Virus record (IMG/VR): IMGVR_UViG_3300018080_000082
Coordinates: 1 to 35,756 of that record
DNA length: 35,756 nt
DNA from: a virus
Strand: one strand, 5' to 3'
Positions 27,747 through 35,756 of the stretch are shown piece after piece (within the stretch, counting starts at the first letter, position 1; every line of letters starts with the position of its first letter). The position numbers and the translations under genes were made by a program. Under the pieces are notes generated by a model. That model made no database searches, was not told the DNA's origin, and saw nothing but the letters and a program-made list of their open reading frames with translations.

Positions 27747-28643
27747 CTAATACAGTGCTCCCGGGCCGGCCTTGATCTGGCCGTCCTCGGCCGGCGGCTC
27801 GAACCGATCCTTCAGCCCCAGATAGCACTCCAGATGCCCCCGCAGTATCCAGTGCCAGCCATCCCAGGCACAAATTTCATCTGCCTCATCCCGGGTAGGA
27901 AGCTCTTTGAGATCATCCCAGCACCGATCACCCAAAATGGCCTCGCGCCACTTTTTTAGAGGCGGCATCGCCGCCCAGTATTGCCGCCAAAACGGCAGCA
28001 ACCCAGTGGATATCCACTCACCCGAGATGGCGAATTGGAACGAAAAAACGTACTCGCCGGCCCCGATAAACCCGCCGGCCTCGATGGACCAGCCGGCCTC
28101 GATGAACCCGCCGGCCTTGATGAACCCGCCGGCCTCGATGAACCCGCCGGCCTTGATGGACCCGCCGGCCTTGATGGACCAGCCGGCCTTGATGGACCAG
28201 CCGGCCTTGATGAACTCGCCGGCCTTGATGAACTCGCCGGCCTTGATGGACCCGCCGCCCTTGATGGACCAGCCCGCCTCGATGAACCCACCGGCCTCGA
28301 TGAACCGGCCGGCCTTCATGAACCCGCCGGCCTCGATGAACCCGCCGGCCTTGATGGCCCCGCCGGCCTTGATGGACCAGCCGGCCTCGATGAACCCGCC
28401 GGCCTCGATGAACCCGCCGGCCCCGATAAACCCGCCGGCCTTGATGGACCCGCCGGCCTCGATGAACCCGCCGGCCTCGATGAACTCGCCGGCCTCGATG
28501 GACAGGGAGCCCTTCACAGTCAAGGACGTTTTTATGTTGAAAGAACACCCAATTTCCAGGTGCCCGTCGATTACATATCGCCCCTCATCCTCGCGATAAT
28601 ATTTGTCCAGGTCTTCTGGTTTGTTTATTTGAACCTTTTCCAT
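27747..28643 (-). CDS. Hexapeptide-repeat protein (predicted beta-helix)
   Basis: This 298-aa protein begins with a polar region (VQINKPEDLDKYYREDEGRY), then degenerate repeats, then 25 hexapeptides at residues 48-197 of the form [S/F]-I-[K/E]-A-G-[G/W/E], as in SIKAGG and FIEAGW. Such repeats should wind into a left-handed or similar parallel beta-helix. The C-terminal 100 residues are a separate Trp-rich domain (WISTGLLPFWRQYWAAMPPL; CAWDGWHWILRGHLECYLGL). AAGGGG lies 7 nt before the ATG. It sits between the initiator and DUF1937 genes. Function unknown. Confidence 0.8.
   Translation of the reverse strand: MEKVQINKPEDLDKYYREDEGRYVIDGHLEIGCSFNIKTSLTVKGSLSIEAGEFIEAGGFIEAGGSIKAGGFIGAGGFIEAGGFIEAGWSIKAGGAIKAGGFIEAGGFMKAGRFIEAGGFIEAGWSIKGGGSIKAGEFIKAGEFIKAGWSIKAGWSIKAGGSIKAGGFIEAGGFIKAGGFIEAGWSIEAGGFIGAGEYVFSFQFAISGEWISTGLLPFWRQYWAAMPPLKKWREAILGDRCWDDLKELPTRDEADEICAWDGWHWILRGHLECYLGLKDRFEPPAEDGQIKAGPGALY
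28053..28502 (-). repeat. 18-bp tandem repeat array, 25 units
   Basis: The 450-bp block consists of 25 in-frame 18-bp units resembling gatgaacccgccggcctc (+ strand) with few substitutions. Because the period is a multiple of three, long open frames appear in other frames and on the opposite strand; these are shadows. The array could expand or contract without a frameshift. Confidence 0.95.
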
Positions 28644-29766: not shown

Positions 29767-30423
29767 CTAACCGAGATCACGGTGTCCGGCACTGGAGCCC
29801 AGACCAGCCGCCGCGCGGGTTCCCGCCTTGGGGGGGATTACAATATCTTGTGGCCCTGTGAGCTCGGGCGGCCACAACATGTTGGGGTTCGCCATCATTG
29901 AGCGGCCCTGGCGGCATCGAACTCGGCCATGTGGATCCTCGGCGTAGAATTTGTTGGCAAAGATCTGGACAACCCGGCTGTCGTCTACATAGACAAGCTC
30001 GTTGCAAACGTCCTTGATGAACTTCACCAGGTTGTCCAGGTCGGGTTTCTTGGTGTGGTGGATCTCACCGGCCAGCATGGCCGCCCGGGCCTTCTTCGAC
30101 GTGCTCTTGGGGATCGGCATGCCAAAGCGAAGGGCCAGCATTACCGGGCAGTCCAGAGGCTTCCAAAGCCATTGCTCCTTAAGGTCGTGAAGGAGCCGGC
30201 CCTCCTCGGTCTCCTGGGTGTTGATCGAGGCGATGTAGGTCTTGCCCCCCTTGCCCGGGCGCCGTGCGAACTTCGGCCGCTTTTTGGCTATGGGCTTGCC
30301 CCACACGGTCATGTTGACGGTGGAAAGGGCGGACCCCGGCCCTTTGACGGCGCAAGGGGGGGCGCACCGCTCCGGGCCGGGATCCGCAAGGTTGAGAGGG
30401 TGGTTGGGGGGATTAGGACTCAT
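29767..30423 (-). CDS. RusA-family Holliday junction resolvase
   Basis: This protein would cut four-way DNA junctions formed during phage recombination. The RusA core is visible: MTVWGKPIAKKRPKFARRPG, then KKPDLDNLVKFIKDVCNELV and YVDDSRVVQIFANKFYAEDP, with conserved Asp residues in DLDN and VDD. The chosen ATG overlaps the upstream stop; an internal ATG at about codon 38 matches the domain start better but lacks a ribosome binding site. A roughly 50-residue C-terminal extension is atypical. Confidence 0.87.
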   Translation of the reverse strand: MSPNPPNHPLNLADPGPERCAPPCAVKGPGSALSTVNMTVWGKPIAKKRPKFARRPGKGGKTYIASINTQETEEGRLLHDLKEQWLWKPLDCPVMLALRFGMPIPKSTSKKARAAMLAGEIHHTKKPDLDNLVKFIKDVCNELVYVDDSRVVQIFANKFYAEDPHGRVRCRQGRSMMANPNMLWPPELTGPQDIVIPPKAGTRAAAGLGSSAGHRDLG

Positions 30424-31336
30424 CGGACGCACCGTCCAGGGGGAGGCTGCCGTCCGTCTTTTTCTTGCCGCCGGCCTTGGGCTTCGCCGATTCCTGCTTG
30501 GCCTTCAGGTCCTGCTTGAGCTTCTCGGCCTGGTCCTTGGTGGCCGAGCCGGTCACGTCAAACCAGTCATCGCGCTTTGACATGCCGTCACGCAGGGAGT
30601 TGTAGATCTTCCGAAGATCCACGAGCTCGGACCCGGAGAGGGCCTGTAGGTTGTGGCCCAGGCGCTCCTCGATCATGCCCGTGTCCACACCGTAGGTCTT
30701 GAAGGCCTCCACGATCTTGAGGGCCCGGTCGGCCAAGGGCTCATCAGAGGCGCCGGCCAGGGTTTGGTCGATCTGCTCCATGGCCTTGTCAACAACGTGG
30801 CCGGGAATAACGGCCAGGATGCATGCCCGGAGCCGTCGGCTACCCTGGTTGGCGGTGAGCTCGTAGATATCGCGTGGATCTCCGCCGCTCAGGTCGGTGT
30901 TGCCGTGCTGCTTGCTGTAGCGCACATGGGGAACCTGGAAAGTGCGGGTGATCCGGGTGTTGGTCTCCAGGTCCCATGCGTATGCCATCATCTCGGAGTA
31001 GCCGCGGGCCCGGGTGAGCTCGATGATCCCGGCGTCGATGTTCCCCCATTTCTGGGCCAGGACCTCGGCCAGCCGGATAGAGGGCCCCTGGATCCTGGTG
31101 CCGCCCCGCGGGTAAGAGTAAATGGCCGACTCCGCTAGGCGTCGGCGTTGGCATTCGTTGATGATCGCGGACATTGCCGCTGTCTCGTGCCGTGGGAATT
31201 GCTTGGCCATGACCATAGAGGCCTGGACCTCGGTCATGGCCCGGGACTGCTCAACGGCAACATTGGCGGCCGGGGGTTGGTGACCACTCTCGGCCGGCAT
31301 GATTTCCCCGTTCTGGGGCACCGGAACGTTACTCAT
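30413..31336 (-). CDS. Putative single-strand annealing / recombination protein
   Basis: This 307-aa protein belongs to a widespread phage family: ARQFPR-like AKQFPRHETAAMSAIINECQ, SYPRGGTRIQGPSIRLAEVL, YAWDLETNTRITRTFQVPHV, and NQGSRRLRACILAVIPGHVV. The C-terminus is Lys-rich and disordered. It overlaps a YqaJ exonuclease gene, the usual partner of an annealing protein, so a Red-beta or RecT-like role is likely. I rely on gene pairing for function. Confidence 0.75.
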   Translation of the reverse strand: MSNVPVPQNGEIMPAESGHQPPAANVAVEQSRAMTEVQASMVMAKQFPRHETAAMSAIINECQRRRLAESAIYSYPRGGTRIQGPSIRLAEVLAQKWGNIDAGIIELTRARGYSEMMAYAWDLETNTRITRTFQVPHVRYSKQHGNTDLSGGDPRDIYELTANQGSRRLRACILAVIPGHVVDKAMEQIDQTLAGASDEPLADRALKIVEAFKTYGVDTGMIEERLGHNLQALSGSELVDLRKIYNSLRDGMSKRDDWFDVTGSATKDQAEKLKQDLKAKQESAKPKAGGKKKTDGSLPLDGASDES

Positions 31337-32306
31337 CGGACCCTCCCTTCAGGACAAAGGGGCGGAAGCTCTTGAAGGGCTTGCCCTGCTTCATGAACTG
31401 GTTCAGGTTGATCTCGGGGTGGGCGGCCTGGAGGGCCTTCTTGTCCAGGGACTTCCGGCCGGCCTGCTCCTTCCAGTGGATCCGCAGCCCGGCGCCCTCG
31501 GCCACCTGGGCCCCGGCCTGGTCCATGAGGTCCTGAAGCGAGGCCTTGCCCTGGTCCTCCAGGGCCTTGCCGCCCTCGATGATCTGACGGGCGTCCACCA
31601 GGAGCTCGGCGGCCTCGGCCCACTCCGGGCTGTCCATGGTGATGATCTCGCCGATCTTTGCCGGGGGGAGATCCGGCAGGGCGGGGGGGCGGTCGATCTC
31701 AGGAGGCCGGCCGGCCTTGATGTTGTTCTCCCAGAAGTTGTGGCCGGCCTCCTGGATCATTTCGATGATGTCGGGGTCGCGTTCCACCGTGACCTCGAGG
31801 AACTCCCACCGCTCGGCGTTGAAGATGATGAAGAGGACAGCATCCAGGCCGGTCACGAAAAGGTAATGCTGGCCCTGGATCTGATAGGTGGGCGAGACTC
31901 CCTGGGTCTTGATCTTGGAAAATGCCGAGAGGCCAGGGACCTTGATCTCGGCCAGGGTCTTGGTTCCCATTACCACCCGGTCCAGGTTGGCCTGGGCCCA
32001 GGGGTGCTCACTGTGCCGCAGGATCCCCACCGGCAGCCCGGCGTGTCCGCGCTGTAGCTTCTTGCCGGTGGCCCGCTGGTACTCATCGGCCGCGATGGGC
32101 TCGAGCACCGTGCCGCGCCGCATGGCCGGGGTCTCGGTCTCGGCCGGAAGGTCCTGGGTCTTTTCAAGGTAAACATCAAGGGCGGTTTTCCACGGGCTCA
32201 CGCCCATGATGGCCGGCATATCCGATCCGCCCAGGCCGCTCTTGCGGGCCTTCAACCATTCCTCTCTGTTCGACTCACTGGTGATCTTGTATGCAAGTTC
32301 TGCCAT
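31329..32306 (-). CDS. YqaJ-type viral exonuclease
   Basis: This 325-aa protein resembles lambda exonuclease-type recombinases. It has EEWLKARKSGLGGSDMPAIM near the N-terminus, Glu69 in VLEP, then Asp109 in WAQANLDRVV and Glu120-x-Lys122 in TLAEIKVPG as catalytic residues, and YQIQGQHYLFVTGLD. It would resect double-stranded ends to give the annealing protein its single strand. It is coupled to that gene by an 8-base overlap. Confidence 0.93.
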   Translation of the reverse strand: MAELAYKITSESNREEWLKARKSGLGGSDMPAIMGVSPWKTALDVYLEKTQDLPAETETPAMRRGTVLEPIAADEYQRATGKKLQRGHAGLPVGILRHSEHPWAQANLDRVVMGTKTLAEIKVPGLSAFSKIKTQGVSPTYQIQGQHYLFVTGLDAVLFIIFNAERWEFLEVTVERDPDIIEMIQEAGHNFWENNIKAGRPPEIDRPPALPDLPPAKIGEIITMDSPEWAEAAELLVDARQIIEGGKALEDQGKASLQDLMDQAGAQVAEGAGLRIHWKEQAGRKSLDKKALQAAHPEINLNQFMKQGKPFKSFRPFVLKGGSDE

Positions 32307-32711
32307 TTATAAGCTCCCTTGCCCGACTGCCATCGGAAGGTCCACCTTCCGCTGCTTGGGCTTTACATGCCGCTGGGCTTCCTCGAGGAGGGCCAGGTCG
32401 TCGAGCAGATCCTGCCCAACTCCATCCCGGTCCCCTCCCTTGGCCCGCCGCAGTTCATCCATCACCGTCTTGTCCCACTCGGAGAGCTGGCGCTCGGTGA
32501 GAAGAACGTGAACGCTGAAGCCGATCACCGGGCAGGTGTCCATGACGCTGCACCCTTCGGGGCATTTAACGTCTTCGTGGTTTTGGTGATAGCCGCACCT
32601 GGTGTCGCAGGTCCCGCCAGGAAACGGCAGGCCGTGACTCATCCGATGCTCACGGCAGATCGAGAAAACGGCGCCATCTTCGGCTACCGAAACGGCACTT
32701 TCTTGGTCCAT
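32307..32711 (-). CDS. Cys/His-rich early protein
   Basis: This 134-aa protein is the second gene of the leftward operon. Its N-terminal half has many Cys and His residues (CREHRMSH, GGTCDTRCGYHQNHE, KCPEGCSVMDTC), suggesting zinc binding. The C-terminal half is helical and charged (LTERQLSEWDKTVMDELRRA). GGGAGGG lies about 3 nt from the ATG. The leader before it can form a long hairpin containing one copy of a 30-bp repeat. Function unknown. Confidence 0.65.
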   Translation of the reverse strand: MDQESAVSVAEDGAVFSICREHRMSHGLPFPGGTCDTRCGYHQNHEDVKCPEGCSVMDTCPVIGFSVHVLLTERQLSEWDKTVMDELRRAKGGDRDGVGQDLLDDLALLEEAQRHVKPKQRKVDLPMAVGQGSL

Positions 32712-32722
32712 GCTTCCCTCCC

Positions 32723-32772
32723 GGGTCGGGCGGGGTGAGGTGCGCCAACACAGCTCGGTTCCCGCAAGACCC
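32723..32772 (-). promoter_or_regulatory. Leader hairpin before the Cys/His-rich gene
   Basis: In the leftward RNA, GGGTCTTGCGGG (32772-32761) can pair with CCCGCCCGACCC (32734-32723): ten pairs with a two-base internal mismatch. The downstream arm abuts the ribosome binding site, and the upstream arm is part of the 30-bp repeat. Pairing of another RNA to the repeat could therefore change access to the start. The structure is inferred. Confidence 0.45.
32743..32772 (+). repeat. Immunity-flanking direct repeat, copy 1
   Basis: These 30 bases match 33771-33800 at 28 positions, in the same orientation; the two differences are G/A transitions. The copy lies between the HTH gene and the next early gene. 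Together the copies enclose exactly the two divergent regulators. Confidence 0.9.
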
Positions 32773-32785
32773 TTTGGTTAATAAA

Positions 32786-33013
32786 TCAAACCCCTACTGC
32801 ACGTGCAGTTGTTTCTCCGATTAAAAAAAAATCAAGGCTCAAGCCAAACCCATTCGCAATCCTGAGAACTGTCCGCAGGTTGGGATATCCTTCATGCTTT
32901 TCCAGTTGTTGGACTTGCTGAGGCTTCATCCCCACTATCTCACCGAATTCCTTATGTGATAGGCCCCGTTCGGTCCGCAGACGCTTGATAGCGTGTCTGT
33001 CGAATTCCAGCAT
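32786..33013 (-). CDS. Cro-like HTH regulator
   Basis: This 75-aa protein is a single XRE-type helix-turn-helix domain: AIKRLRTERGLSHKEFGEIV, GMKPQQVQQLEKHEGYPNLR, TVLRIANGFGLSLDFFLIG. It is first in the leftward lytic transcript, with GGAGGGAG before the ATG, so it corresponds to Cro rather than to the prophage repressor. A promoter with an operator in its spacer lies upstream, and a perfect 12-bp palindrome of the same type lies in its 3' end (32797-32808). It probably represses the divergent gene and itself. Confidence 0.87.
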   Translation of the reverse strand: MLEFDRHAIKRLRTERGLSHKEFGEIVGMKPQQVQQLEKHEGYPNLRTVLRIANGFGLSLDFFLIGETTARAVGV

Positions 33014-33037
33014 TGGGTCTCCCTCCTCGTTGAAGGC

Positions 33038-33066
33038 AGTCTATTTGCAACCGCACGTGCAGTCAA
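33038..33066 (-). promoter_or_regulatory. Leftward early promoter with spacer operator
   Basis: On the - strand TTGACT (33066-33061), a 17-bp spacer and TAGACT (33043-33038) precede the HTH gene. The spacer contains GCACGTGCAG (33053-33062), part of the TGCAnnTGCA operator pattern. This is the likely lytic promoter. Confidence 0.6.
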
Positions 33067-33078
33067 CAAAAAAATTCA

Positions 33079-33108
33079 TTGCAATTGCAGGAAACTTGTT
33101 TTTATAAT
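33079..33108 (+). promoter_or_regulatory. Rightward repressor promoter with operator
   Basis: TTGCAA (33079-33084), an 18-bp spacer and a perfect TATAAT (33103-33108) point toward the gene at 33138. The palindrome TGCAATTGCA (33080-33089) overlaps the -35 element and so could block this promoter. Confidence 0.6.
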
Positions 33109-33137
33109 TAAATCACTCCCATAAAAGGATATGAATC

Positions 33138-33734
33138 GTGGGCTATGATTTGAGATGGGTGCCGGGGTGTCTCGCGGCACTAAAAAGAGAGGTGGGGTCC
33201 TGGGCTGCTCTCGGCCGCAGGGTGGGAACTACGGGATATGCTCTCAGCAGGAATGCACGAGGCGAGGTTGAGATGTCGGCGGACACGTGGGAAAAGCTCT
33301 TTACTGCTTTTCCTAACTATGTCCCCAAACCCCCGTGGGTGAATCTCGCCGATGGATCTAAAACCGCTAATGGTACACATCGTGCAGGTGTTTCCCCCGA
33401 AGCGACAACGGAACCAGTTGGGTCTTTGCAAGAGGTGGTCGTTTTTGACGCCAATTGCGGGGAAGGGGGAATTATGTGGACAGATGGCGGCAACGCCTGC
33501 ACCGGATGCGTGGTCCTGAAGCTGAAGGCCGACGGCACGGGGACGGGCACCGACAAATATGGATATTTCACCGGCCAGGCAGGAACCTACAGGGGGACAT
33601 GGGAATATGCGGGCGGAAAACTCTACCTGCAGATGACCAATTTTTACGACGTGACGACAGCCAGGATGCCCTCCTTCGATATCCTTAATCTCATAGGCGA
33701 CGGGGGCAACATCAATGTCTACGTCAGGCAATAG
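33138..33734 (+). CDS. Putative lysogeny repressor with novel C-terminal domain
   Basis: This 198-aa protein is transcribed divergently from the Cro-like gene. The GTG start is supported by AAAGGA 8 nt upstream. Residues 12-50 look like a helix-turn-helix (REVGSWAALGRRVGTTGYAL; GEVEMSADTWEKLFTAFP). After a linker, residues 95-198 form a beta-rich, Gly-rich domain with three Cys (DANCGEGGIMWTDGGNACTG; GTYRGTWEYAGGKLYLQM). No LexA-type Ser/Lys peptidase motif is visible, so induction would not be by classical self-cleavage. Position suggests a CI analogue; the C-terminal family is unknown. Confidence 0.6.
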   Translation: MGYDLRWVPGCLAALKREVGSWAALGRRVGTTGYALSRNARGEVEMSADTWEKLFTAFPNYVPKPPWVNLADGSKTANGTHRAGVSPEATTEPVGSLQEVVVFDANCGEGGIMWTDGGNACTGCVVLKLKADGTGTGTDKYGYFTGQAGTYRGTWEYAGGKLYLQMTNFYDVTTARMPSFDILNLIGDGGNINVYVRQ

Positions 33735-33770
33735 CTTGACTCGCCTACAAACATGTAGTAGTTTTTAATT

Positions 33771-33800
33771 CGCCAACACAACTCGGTTCCCGCAAGGCCC
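33771..33800 (+). repeat. Immunity-flanking direct repeat, copy 2
   Basis: Matches 32743-32772 at 28 of 30 positions. It is directly followed by a terminator hairpin (33798-33828) and preceded by a promoter-like TTGACT (33736-33741) with a weak -10, so it could form the 5' part of a short RNA of about 58 nt. Confidence 0.9.
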
Positions 33801-33828
33801 AATCCCCTCTTTTGGGAGATTGGGTTTT
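33798..33828 (+). terminator. Intrinsic terminator after the repressor gene
   Basis: CCCAATC and CCC pair with GGG and GATTGGG (one bulged A) around a 6-nt loop, followed by TTTT. It lies 64 nt after the repressor stop and before the excision/integration cassette, separating the two. Confidence 0.8.
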
Positions 33829-33830
33829 GC

Positions 33831-34205
33831 ATGCCTGGACCGAGCACCCCCCTCAAGGCGATTAGATCCGACTGCGTTGCCTGTATGGGTGGCAACGTCC
33901 AGCTGCCCGCCGAGTGCACCGCCAGGGGTTGCGCCCTCTGGCCTTACCGGATGGGCAAGCGGCCGGCCACTGGCGCCCACCGCCCATTGGGAGCTGTTCA
34001 TGCGCACTGCATCTCTTGCGTCGGATCCGCGCAGGAGGCCCGCAGCTGCACCGGCGAGATGATCGACGGGACCACCTGTGTGCTGCACCCCTACCGCAAT
34101 GGGACCAATCCCCGGCGTCGTGGCGTGGGCAGGGCTGGAGGAAACCCCAATCTCACGGGGCAAGCAGGACGCAAGAAGGCCCCCGAACCGGCCAGGGGGG
34201 TATGA
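33831..34205 (+). CDS. Duplicated Cys-motif (zinc-type) protein
   Basis: This 124-aa protein has two copies of one motif: Cys15, Cys18, Cys29 and Cys34 followed by ALWPYRMGKRP; and Cys60, Cys63, Cys73 and Cys83 followed by VLHPYRNGTNP. Single-copy versions (CxxC...C...C-PYR-G) are frequent small phage proteins. It probably binds zinc. The stop overlaps the next gene's ATG. It begins just after a terminator, so it may need read-through or an unseen promoter. Confidence 0.75.
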   Translation: MPGPSTPLKAIRSDCVACMGGNVQLPAECTARGCALWPYRMGKRPATGAHRPLGAVHAHCISCVGSAQEARSCTGEMIDGTTCVLHPYRNGTNPRRRGVGRAGGNPNLTGQAGRKKAPEPARGV

Positions 34206-34537: not shown

Positions 34538-35531
34538 CCTGGCCCAGCTCTACCTGGACGAGGCCCAGGTCCGCTATTCTCACAACACCTATGTTGAGAA
34601 ATGCTCCTGCCTCGAGCGATTGAGCGCCGCAGTTGGCGACGTTAAGCCGGCAGAAGTTACCCCAGCCGACATCACCGCCCTGCTGGTGTCCCGGGCCCGG
34701 GAGGCATCCCCCAACGTCAGCAACCGCGACCGCAAGAACCTGAAGGCCTTCTTCCGGTGGATGCATCGCACCCACGGCCTGGCCCACGACCCCACCGCCC
34801 TGATAGACAAGCTGCCCCATGAGAAGAAGACCCGCCGGGTGGTCCCTATCCAGGACATCCTGTCGGTGATCATGGCCGCGCCCATGCCCGAGCGGGCCCT
34901 GATCGCTGCATACTGGCACACAGGGGCTCGGCGGGGGGAGGTGTTGCGCTGGACCTGGGCCGACGACGTATCCCTCGAGGGACGATGGGTGCGGCTCGGC
35001 ACCAGGAAGAAGGCGGACGGGTCAATGAGCTATGAGAAGCTCTGGATGAACCAGGACCTCTTCAACCTCTTGACCGATCTCTGGCGCAACCACCGCGACC
35101 CCGTCAGCCCCTACCTCTTCCCCGACTACTACCAACCCAACACCCGCGGCCAAAACCTGAGGGGTGAGCAGCGGGCACACCGCCTCTTGGTCGGCTACAC
35201 CAAACACTGGAAGACCAAGAAAGGTGAGGAGCGCGAGAAGCGCCACCCGGGCCTCTGCGAGAAGGCCGGGGTTCCGATCTTCGGCTATCACGACATTCGC
35301 CACACCGTGGCCGCCTACTTGAACGATGTCCACAAGGTGGGGATCAAGAAGGTCCAGCGGGTGCTGAGGCACCGCCGGCAGACCACCACGGAGATCTACC
35401 TGGAAGGCGACTACACCACCACCCAGAGCGCCCTGGAGCTGCTCGAGGCCCAAAACTTGGGCACCTTGGACGAAAAAGTGACTCCAAAAGTGACTCCAAG
35501 CAATAAAAAAGGGCTAACCATAATCGGTTAA
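34362..35531 (+). CDS. int: Tyrosine integrase
   Basis: The ATG at 34362, after GGGGGG, gives 389 residues. The N-terminal arm-binding domain (TKYGWRTKFQHNQEWVYGPG) and SAM-like core-binding domain precede the catalytic domain: TGARRGEVLRW (Arg190/191), HDIRHTVAAYL (His310, Arg313), LRHRRQTTTEIYLEGD (His337, nucleophile Tyr346). It recombines attP with a host tRNA-Glu gene. The last codons (KVTPKVTP) also form arm-type binding sites, so the gene end doubles as attachment DNA. Confidence 0.95.
   Translation: MSTWKTKYGWRTKFQHNQEWVYGPGYFTSKRAANAWKKDEKARLKEADQAEPTSPGLYDLAQLYLDEAQVRYSHNTYVEKCSCLERLSAAVGDVKPAEVTPADITALLVSRAREASPNVSNRDRKNLKAFFRWMHRTHGLAHDPTALIDKLPHEKKTRRVVPIQDILSVIMAAPMPERALIAAYWHTGARRGEVLRWTWADDVSLEGRWVRLGTRKKADGSMSYEKLWMNQDLFNLLTDLWRNHRDPVSPYLFPDYYQPNTRGQNLRGEQRAHRLLVGYTKHWKTKKGEEREKRHPGLCEKAGVPIFGYHDIRHTVAAYLNDVHKVGIKKVQRVLRHRRQTTTEIYLEGDYTTTQSALELLEAQNLGTLDEKVTPKVTPSNKKGLTIIG
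35475..35499. promoter_or_regulatory. Integrase arm-type sites inside int
   Basis: Two AGTGACTCC copies, 11 bp apart (35477-35485 and 35488-35496), match the pair at 85-104. They encode KVTPKVT of the integrase, so coding and site function overlap. Confidence 0.7.
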
Positions 35532-35537: not shown

Positions 35538-35546
35538 GAATATACT

Positions 35547-35590
35547 TGGCGTCCCCAACGGGATTTGAACCCGTGTCGCTGGCGTGAAAG
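35547..35590 (-). other. attP: attP core: 3' half of tRNA-Glu(TTC)
   Basis: On the - strand these 44 bases read from the anticodon loop CTTTCAC through the T arm (ACGGG-TTCAAAT-CCCGT), acceptor TGGGGAC, G and CCA. The 5' half of the tRNA is missing and the 5' anticodon stem does not pair, so this is not a full tRNA gene but the identity block by which integration would restore a host tRNA-Glu gene. Confidence 0.85.
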
Positions 35591-35602
35591 GCTGCCGTCC
35601 TG

Positions 35603-35624
35603 GATTCCCTAACCTGCGGGAATC
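35603..35624. promoter_or_regulatory. 7-bp hairpin beside attP
   Basis: GATTCCC-8 nt-GGGAATC is a perfect inverted repeat between the attP core and the arm sites. It may be an accessory protein site such as for Xis or a DNA-bending protein. Confidence 0.4.
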
Positions 35625-35633
35625 ACTCCAACC

Positions 35634-35756
35634 AACGTAATATCAGCCGGTTGATGGAGCTACTTTTGGAGTCACTTTCCGGTGATTCCGGCCCAAATCG
35701 GAACTCCCGGCGGGCAAAGTGACTCCAAAAGTGACTCCAAACCAGGACCTTTTTCG
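35634..35756. repeat. Terminal direct repeat, right copy
   Basis: Exact copy of bases 1-123; marks circular closure. In the circle the attP core is followed by this segment, which carries the arm-type sites. Confidence 0.95.

Follow-up and report, generated by a model that had tools for sequence, protein, structure and literature searches.

The immunity region and its genome

The temperate phage sequence recorded among the viruses of IMG/VR as IMGVR_UViG_3300018080_000082, referred to as the window in its whole length of 35,756 nt, contains a divergent pair of genes for a Cro-like and a repressor-like protein, with one copy of a 30-bp direct repeat on either side (Table 1). Leftward transcripts from 33066 would cover, in order, the HTH gene, copy 1 of the repeat, gene 32307-32711, yqaJ and recT; rightward ones from 33079 would cover the repressor-like gene, copy 2 and a hairpin with a T4 tail.

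Table 1. Features in and around the immunity region (window coordinates).
Feature	Position	Strand	Remarks
RecT-like single-strand annealing protein	30413..31336	-	name inferred from position and resemblance
YqaJ-like recombination exonuclease	31329..32306	-	PF09588, E 7e-29
Cys-rich protein, 134 aa	32307..32711	-	function unassigned; leftward operon's first gene past copy 1
Shine-Dalgarno GGGAGGG of gene 32307-32711	32716..32722	-	
Competing hairpin H2, CCCGCCCG-ACC-CGGGAGGG	32716..32734	-	-10.3 kcal/mol; predicted to sequester the Shine-Dalgarno
Leader hairpin H1, GGGUC/GACCC, GCGGG/CCCGC, GAG/CUC	32723..32772	-	-25.5 kcal/mol; predicted to keep the Shine-Dalgarno open
Repeat copy 1	32743..32772	+	on the - strand, complete 5' arm and apical loop of H1
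HTH_3 protein, 75 aa, Cro-like	32786..33013	-	leads leftward operon; PF01381, E 3e-12
Second operator-like site ACTGCACGTGCAGT	32796..32809	.	3' end of HTH gene
Leftward promoter TTGACT-17-TAGACT (predicted)	33038..33066	-	weight-matrix rank 6 of 71,452
Operator-like palindrome ACCGCACGTGCAGT	33050..33063	.	inside leftward promoter
Rightward promoter TTGCAA-18-TATAAT of repressor-like gene (predicted)	33079..33108	+	weight-matrix rank 1 of 71,452
Repressor-like protein, 198 aa	33138..33734	+	N-terminal part resembles S24 repressor
Promoter-like site TTGACT-17-TAGTTT	33736..33764	+	sigma-70-like; rank 13 of 71,452
Repeat copy 2	33771..33800	+	matches copy 1 at 28/30; predicted to form the antisense RNA's 5' portion
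Predicted ~58-nt antisense RNA or repressor-like mRNA 3' UTR	33771..33828	+	~23 nt single-stranded, then terminator hairpin
Intrinsic-terminator-like hairpin GCAAGGCCCAATCCCC/GGGAGATTGGG, then TTTT	33792..33828	+	fold prediction

The divergent HTH and repressor genes, with promoters and a palindrome between them, have the layout of a lambda-like module. In the distantly syntenic locus L050, HTH_3 and S24 repressor genes occur in matching order; the 75-aa HTH_3 protein matches the HTH protein in the Cro position of L050 at 38% over 53 aa, and the repressor-like protein matches the S24 repressor of L050 at 30% over 124 aa. Owing to these ordered counterparts, the module is read as a Cro-like and a repressor-like gene. 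A domain search gave no S24 match in the repressor-like protein that would indicate an S24-type autocleaving C-terminal domain. Its C-terminal part is weakly lipocalin-like (Lipocalin_4, E 0.039, below the cut-off), and the protein appears to combine an S24-type N-terminal part with a C-terminal part that is not S24 and is possibly lipocalin-like. The AlphaFold model from the single sequence (pLDDT 42) was too poor for use. The palindrome ACNGCACGTGCAGT is present in two copies, at 33050 and 32796. The latter falls within the last codons of the Cro-like gene, where it could support looping or roadblock control.

On the leftward side, the stop codon TAA of gene 32307-32711 abuts the ATG of yqaJ (TAAATG), and the ATG of recT overlaps the yqaJ stop (ATGAGTAA), suggesting that the three genes are translationally coupled. 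Because the downstream genes abut or overlap in this way, closing the Shine-Dalgarno of the first could lower the whole recombination operon.

The two ends of the record form a perfect 123-bp direct repeat (1-123 = 35634-35756), so the genome is most likely complete at 35,633 bp and maps as a circle. In the order to which a Desulfarculaceae metagenome-assembled genome (MAG) belongs, genomes encode integrases that share 55-59% identity with that of the phage, which suggests a host within that order. ARAGORN reported no complete tRNA, and the stretch 35540-35604 resembles the 3' part of a tRNA and is 84-91% conserved beside related integrases in several host chromosomes; it is likely to be the attachment core. 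Around it, at 35475-35499 and 35716-35740, AAAGTGACTCCAA elements are repeated that could serve as integrase arm sites. Elsewhere, the gene at 27747-28643 (- strand) consists of about 25 in-frame 18-bp repeats encoding GGFIEA-type hexapeptides, and because of this 18-bp repeat several other frames are open there too. The gene at 33831-34205, to the right of copy 2, encodes a 124-aa Cys-rich protein in which a 36-aa stretch is 58% identical to a segment of proteins from Pseudomonas aeruginosa phages, SM1 and PaMx31 among them. PADLOC returned generic HTH matches only, leaving a defence system unsupported. In L053, positions 7-1187 hold 17 direct repeats with a period of about 71 nt, a CRISPR-like array, close to an HTH protein distantly similar to the N-terminus of the repressor-like protein.

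The repeat pair and its distribution

The first-pass annotation described a 30-bp direct repeat enclosing just the Cro-like and repressor-like genes. Both copies lie where it placed them, agree at 28 of 30 positions, and occupy the sole two intergenic gaps flanking that gene pair. Copy 1 lies 13 nt 3' of the HTH gene stop and copy 2 lies 36 nt 3' of the repressor-like gene stop. Both copies should be non-coding, since the ORF list takes every frame from its earliest possible start codon and shows no in-frame start within either gap from which the following gene could begin. The edges of the similarity are sharp: gapped local alignment of the 230-nt regions stops exactly at 30 nt. With up to three mismatches allowed, the repeat core occurs twice in the window and not once in 100 dinucleotide shuffles, and the next-best 30-mer anywhere in the window reaches 18/30; the chance expectation of such a pair is nil. 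Pairs of this kind are also rare in comparable DNA: about 163 kb of it held a single non-array-like pair of at least 28/30 at a spacing of 200-3000 bp, in L035. A dif-like site or a transposon duplication was set aside, as the repeat is G+C-rich, 30 bp long and devoid of arm symmetry.

The repeat was sought by exact scans of IMG/VR and GTDB contigs, and relatives of the phage through the HTH, repressor-like, 134-aa, YqaJ, integrase and RecT proteins, three alignments and genome searches. Further copies were found neither in IMG/VR and the GTDB contigs nor in 21 host-order genomes. Relatives sharing the integrase, YqaJ or RecT were recovered, and none of them carries the repeat; their immunity regions differ or lack the Cro-like and repressor-like genes. 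The RecT sequence has 80 relatives in IMG/VR. In the 5 kb upstream of these, a dispersed repeat of at least 22/24 occurs at five loci, none of them resembling the present pair. L048, the same phage as L036, has an unrelated immunity region, and the distant syntenic locus L050/L052 contains no such repeat pair.

This variety among phages with related integrases or RecT is in keeping with the main rival to the antisense switch favoured below, namely that the duplication is a recombination scar at the edges of an acquired or exchanged immunity cassette and has no present function. The direct orientation of the copies, the absence of similarity beyond 30 nt and the enclosure of exactly two genes fit such an origin as well. 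The G+C content of the cassette (50.8%, against 63.8% for the window) points the same way, although immunity regions are usually low in G+C. A useless repeat should, moreover, be short-lived, because two 30-bp direct copies about 1 kb apart in a genome with RecT and YqaJ would invite deletion of the cassette. A scar is accordingly regarded as unlikely, also in view of the positions of the two copies discussed below.

Each flanking operon has one copy ahead of it (leftward from 32711, rightward from 33831), which could instead mean that the repeats are sites for a phage or host protein, as an operator pair, a looping pair or nut-like elements, controlling the left and right early operons. The repeat itself has no clear dyad (best reverse-complement match 18/30), whereas the evident operators are the separate palindromes at 33050 and 32796. 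In nutL and nutR, each copy reads identically within its own transcript. The direct-repeat copies here point opposite ways relative to their two transcripts, and the nut-site reading was rejected on this orientation. With obvious operators elsewhere and an orientation wrong for a transcript-tracking site, control through a protein bound to the repeats is considered improbable.

Predicted complementary RNAs and the leader hairpin

Since the repeats are direct and the transcripts opposite, any RNA carrying copy 2 could base-pair with the copy 1 stretch of the leftward mRNA. Such complementarity to the leftward early leader had been proposed in the first-pass annotation; it spans 30 nt, broken by a single A-C mismatch and including a single G-U wobble. 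These are the two differences between the copies: the wobble keeps the pairing and the mismatch does not, and together they are neutral evidence on antisense pairing. At position 27, where the copies differ, U-A pairing in H1 depends on the copy 1 base and would be lost with that of copy 2. The pairing of copy 2 RNA with the leader is calculated at -59.8 kcal/mol, compared with a background mean of -21.2 (sd 4.9) and -38.4 for the next-best unrelated site; the cofold reaches -87.8, against -21.1 and -34.1 for the two RNAs apart.

The same annotation had pointed to a TTGACT element ahead of copy 2 and a terminator behind it; the element is present, as is a terminator-like hairpin. The element occupies 33736-33741, and the predicted +1, 7 nt past the second hexamer, is 33771, the first base of the repeat. 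A strict consensus scan omits this promoter-like site because it has 8 of 12 consensus matches, with 3 of 6 in the second hexamer. The intrinsic-terminator-like hairpin has a short T4 tail and is omitted by a 5-T rule, as the tail reads only TTTTGC; its 5' side is the last 9 nt of copy 2. Folding z-scores are -2.48 for 33771-33828 and -4.62 for 33760-33832. A separate transcription start at 33771 is plausible from these motifs. Copy 2 may also simply form the 3' UTR of the repressor-like mRNA, in which case a promoter of its own would not be needed.

The share of copy 2 in the terminator stem raises the possibility that only copy 2 has a function, namely to supply the 5' side of the terminator that ends the repressor-like mRNA, and that copy 1 is an incidental transplant. 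The remaining 21 nt are single-stranded in that structure, and their conservation would not be needed; copy 1, for its part, has no terminator. This is the least probable of the readings considered, and we hold it to be very unlikely.

Copy 1 also has a structural setting of its own. That the repeat is one arm of a hairpin next to a ribosome binding site, as proposed beforehand, is borne out by the predicted leader fold: the repeat edge coincides with the base of H1, and the 3' arm of H1 ends immediately before the Shine-Dalgarno. The stability of H1 is usual for this G+C content and does not exceed that of shuffles (z -0.35). In a masking test devised after the sequence had been inspected, blocking copy 1 in the fold of 32790-32690 lowered the predicted openness of the Shine-Dalgarno from 0.67 to 0.15, as the 3' arm of H1 now paired with the Shine-Dalgarno to give H2. 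The effect needed no more than the stem half of copy 1 to be masked; masking only the loop half did not produce it. Of 500 shuffles of the 20-nt linker, 5 reached the openness change; the window's 35 other gene starts all failed to show it, and no repeat shuffle (0/500) kept the Shine-Dalgarno equally open. Fragments of 100-180 nt, and also 33031-32500, show the exchange of H1 for H2 clearly. In the fold of 32900-32600, H2 dominates even before masking, and in 33031-32300 masking fails to induce it, other pairings competing with it. The switch is thus not robust to folding context.

A recombination scar does not predict that copy 1 should be exactly a hairpin arm beside a Shine-Dalgarno, nor that copy 2 should start at a promoter +1 and run into a terminator. 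These positions argue for an antisense switch, in which the two repeats are a matched antisense pair backing up protein immunity; this is our favoured reading, held tentatively and somewhat short of probable. In a lysogen, copy 2 RNA would arise either from its own start at 33771, with a length of ~58 nt, or within the repressor-like mRNA, as its 3' UTR. Its target would be copy 1 in the leftward early mRNA, and the 30-nt duplex would lie in the stretch that separates the Cro-like gene from the recombination operon. As long as the leader is unpaired, H1, with copy 1 as its 5' arm, would hold the Shine-Dalgarno of gene 32307-32711 open. Pairing would take away this 5' arm, so that the freed CCC-rich arm could pair with GGGAGGG to form H2. 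H2 would in turn block translation of gene 32307-32711 and of the coupled yqaJ and recT, and the repression could be deepened by Rho-dependent polarity or by cleavage of the duplex. The sequence itself gives the geometry, complementarity, reading frames and gene order of the locus; the promoter, the terminator and the exchange of H1 for H2 are computational predictions, and we infer the expression and timing of the RNA, its effect on translation and any role in immunity or superinfection.

In its fullest form, the proposal is an RNA-level second lock on the Cro/repressor switch: a duplicate of the leader-hairpin arm at the end of the repressor gene would act as an antisense RNA that switches the leader from one hairpin to the other and shuts the ribosome binding site serving the recombination operon. 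This more specific claim is doubtful. If it holds, a single transcript would tie transcription of the repressor to silencing of the early operon, and antisense immunity RNAs would be seen to be able to arise in one step. The locus would then be a working example of an antisense immunity RNA in a phage of a Desulfarculales-type host, with a hairpin-arm duplicate laid over a protein repressor. It would also provide a search signature, namely a direct repeat flanking a divergent repressor/Cro pair, with one copy forming a leader hairpin arm and the other running from a promoter +1 to a terminator.

Comparison with known phage antisense RNAs

Antisense immunity RNAs are known mostly from a few enterobacterial phages, and c4 and its target lie on one transcript. 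An antisense role had been suggested for the present locus together with a kinship to P4 CI RNA and P1 c4 RNA. The antisense interpretation is supported as far as the opposite-sense copies, the placement at +1, the hairpin arm and the local effect of masking are concerned, and the class membership is not: regulator and target are on separate, opposite transcripts, and no Rfam 15 family matched at its gathering score in the window.

The P4 CI RNA has two pairing partners, seqA and seqC, which flank it on the upstream and the downstream side (PMC4825925). The candidate would resemble it as an antisense RNA of an immunity region directed at an early leader, by which early expression is stopped in the lysogen (PMC4825925). 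CI RNA, however, is processed from the same untranslated leader transcript as its targets, whereas the candidate would be read in the opposite direction from a site some 1 kb distant; the present locus also has a Cro/repressor protein pair and palindromic operators. With c4 of P1 and P7 it would share the blocking of a ribosome binding region of an early mRNA (PMC12197685), but the c4 target is an antirepressor gene and the target here would be a recombination operon.

Short antisense RNAs against phage early mRNAs also include the P22 sar RNA, which is 68-69 nt long and listed as trans-acting (PMC12197685). Sar regulates antirepressor synthesis, whereas the complementarity here stems from a duplicated 30-nt segment. 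The OOP RNA of lambda (77 nt) lies beside the immunity region, as the candidate does, and lowers expression of an early regulator (PMC12197685, PMC7067206); it overlaps cII in cis and depends on RNase III, while pairing here would take place between two separate copies. In prophage BTP1, the antisense RNA STnc6030 acts on the same phage during superinfection (PMC7067206), and the candidate would likewise be a prophage-encoded antisense RNA directed at the same phage. Unlike the candidate, STnc6030 is ~500-786 nt long, is antisense to late genes and is not repeat-based. Set beside these systems, the locus is possibly a novel variant of phage antisense control.
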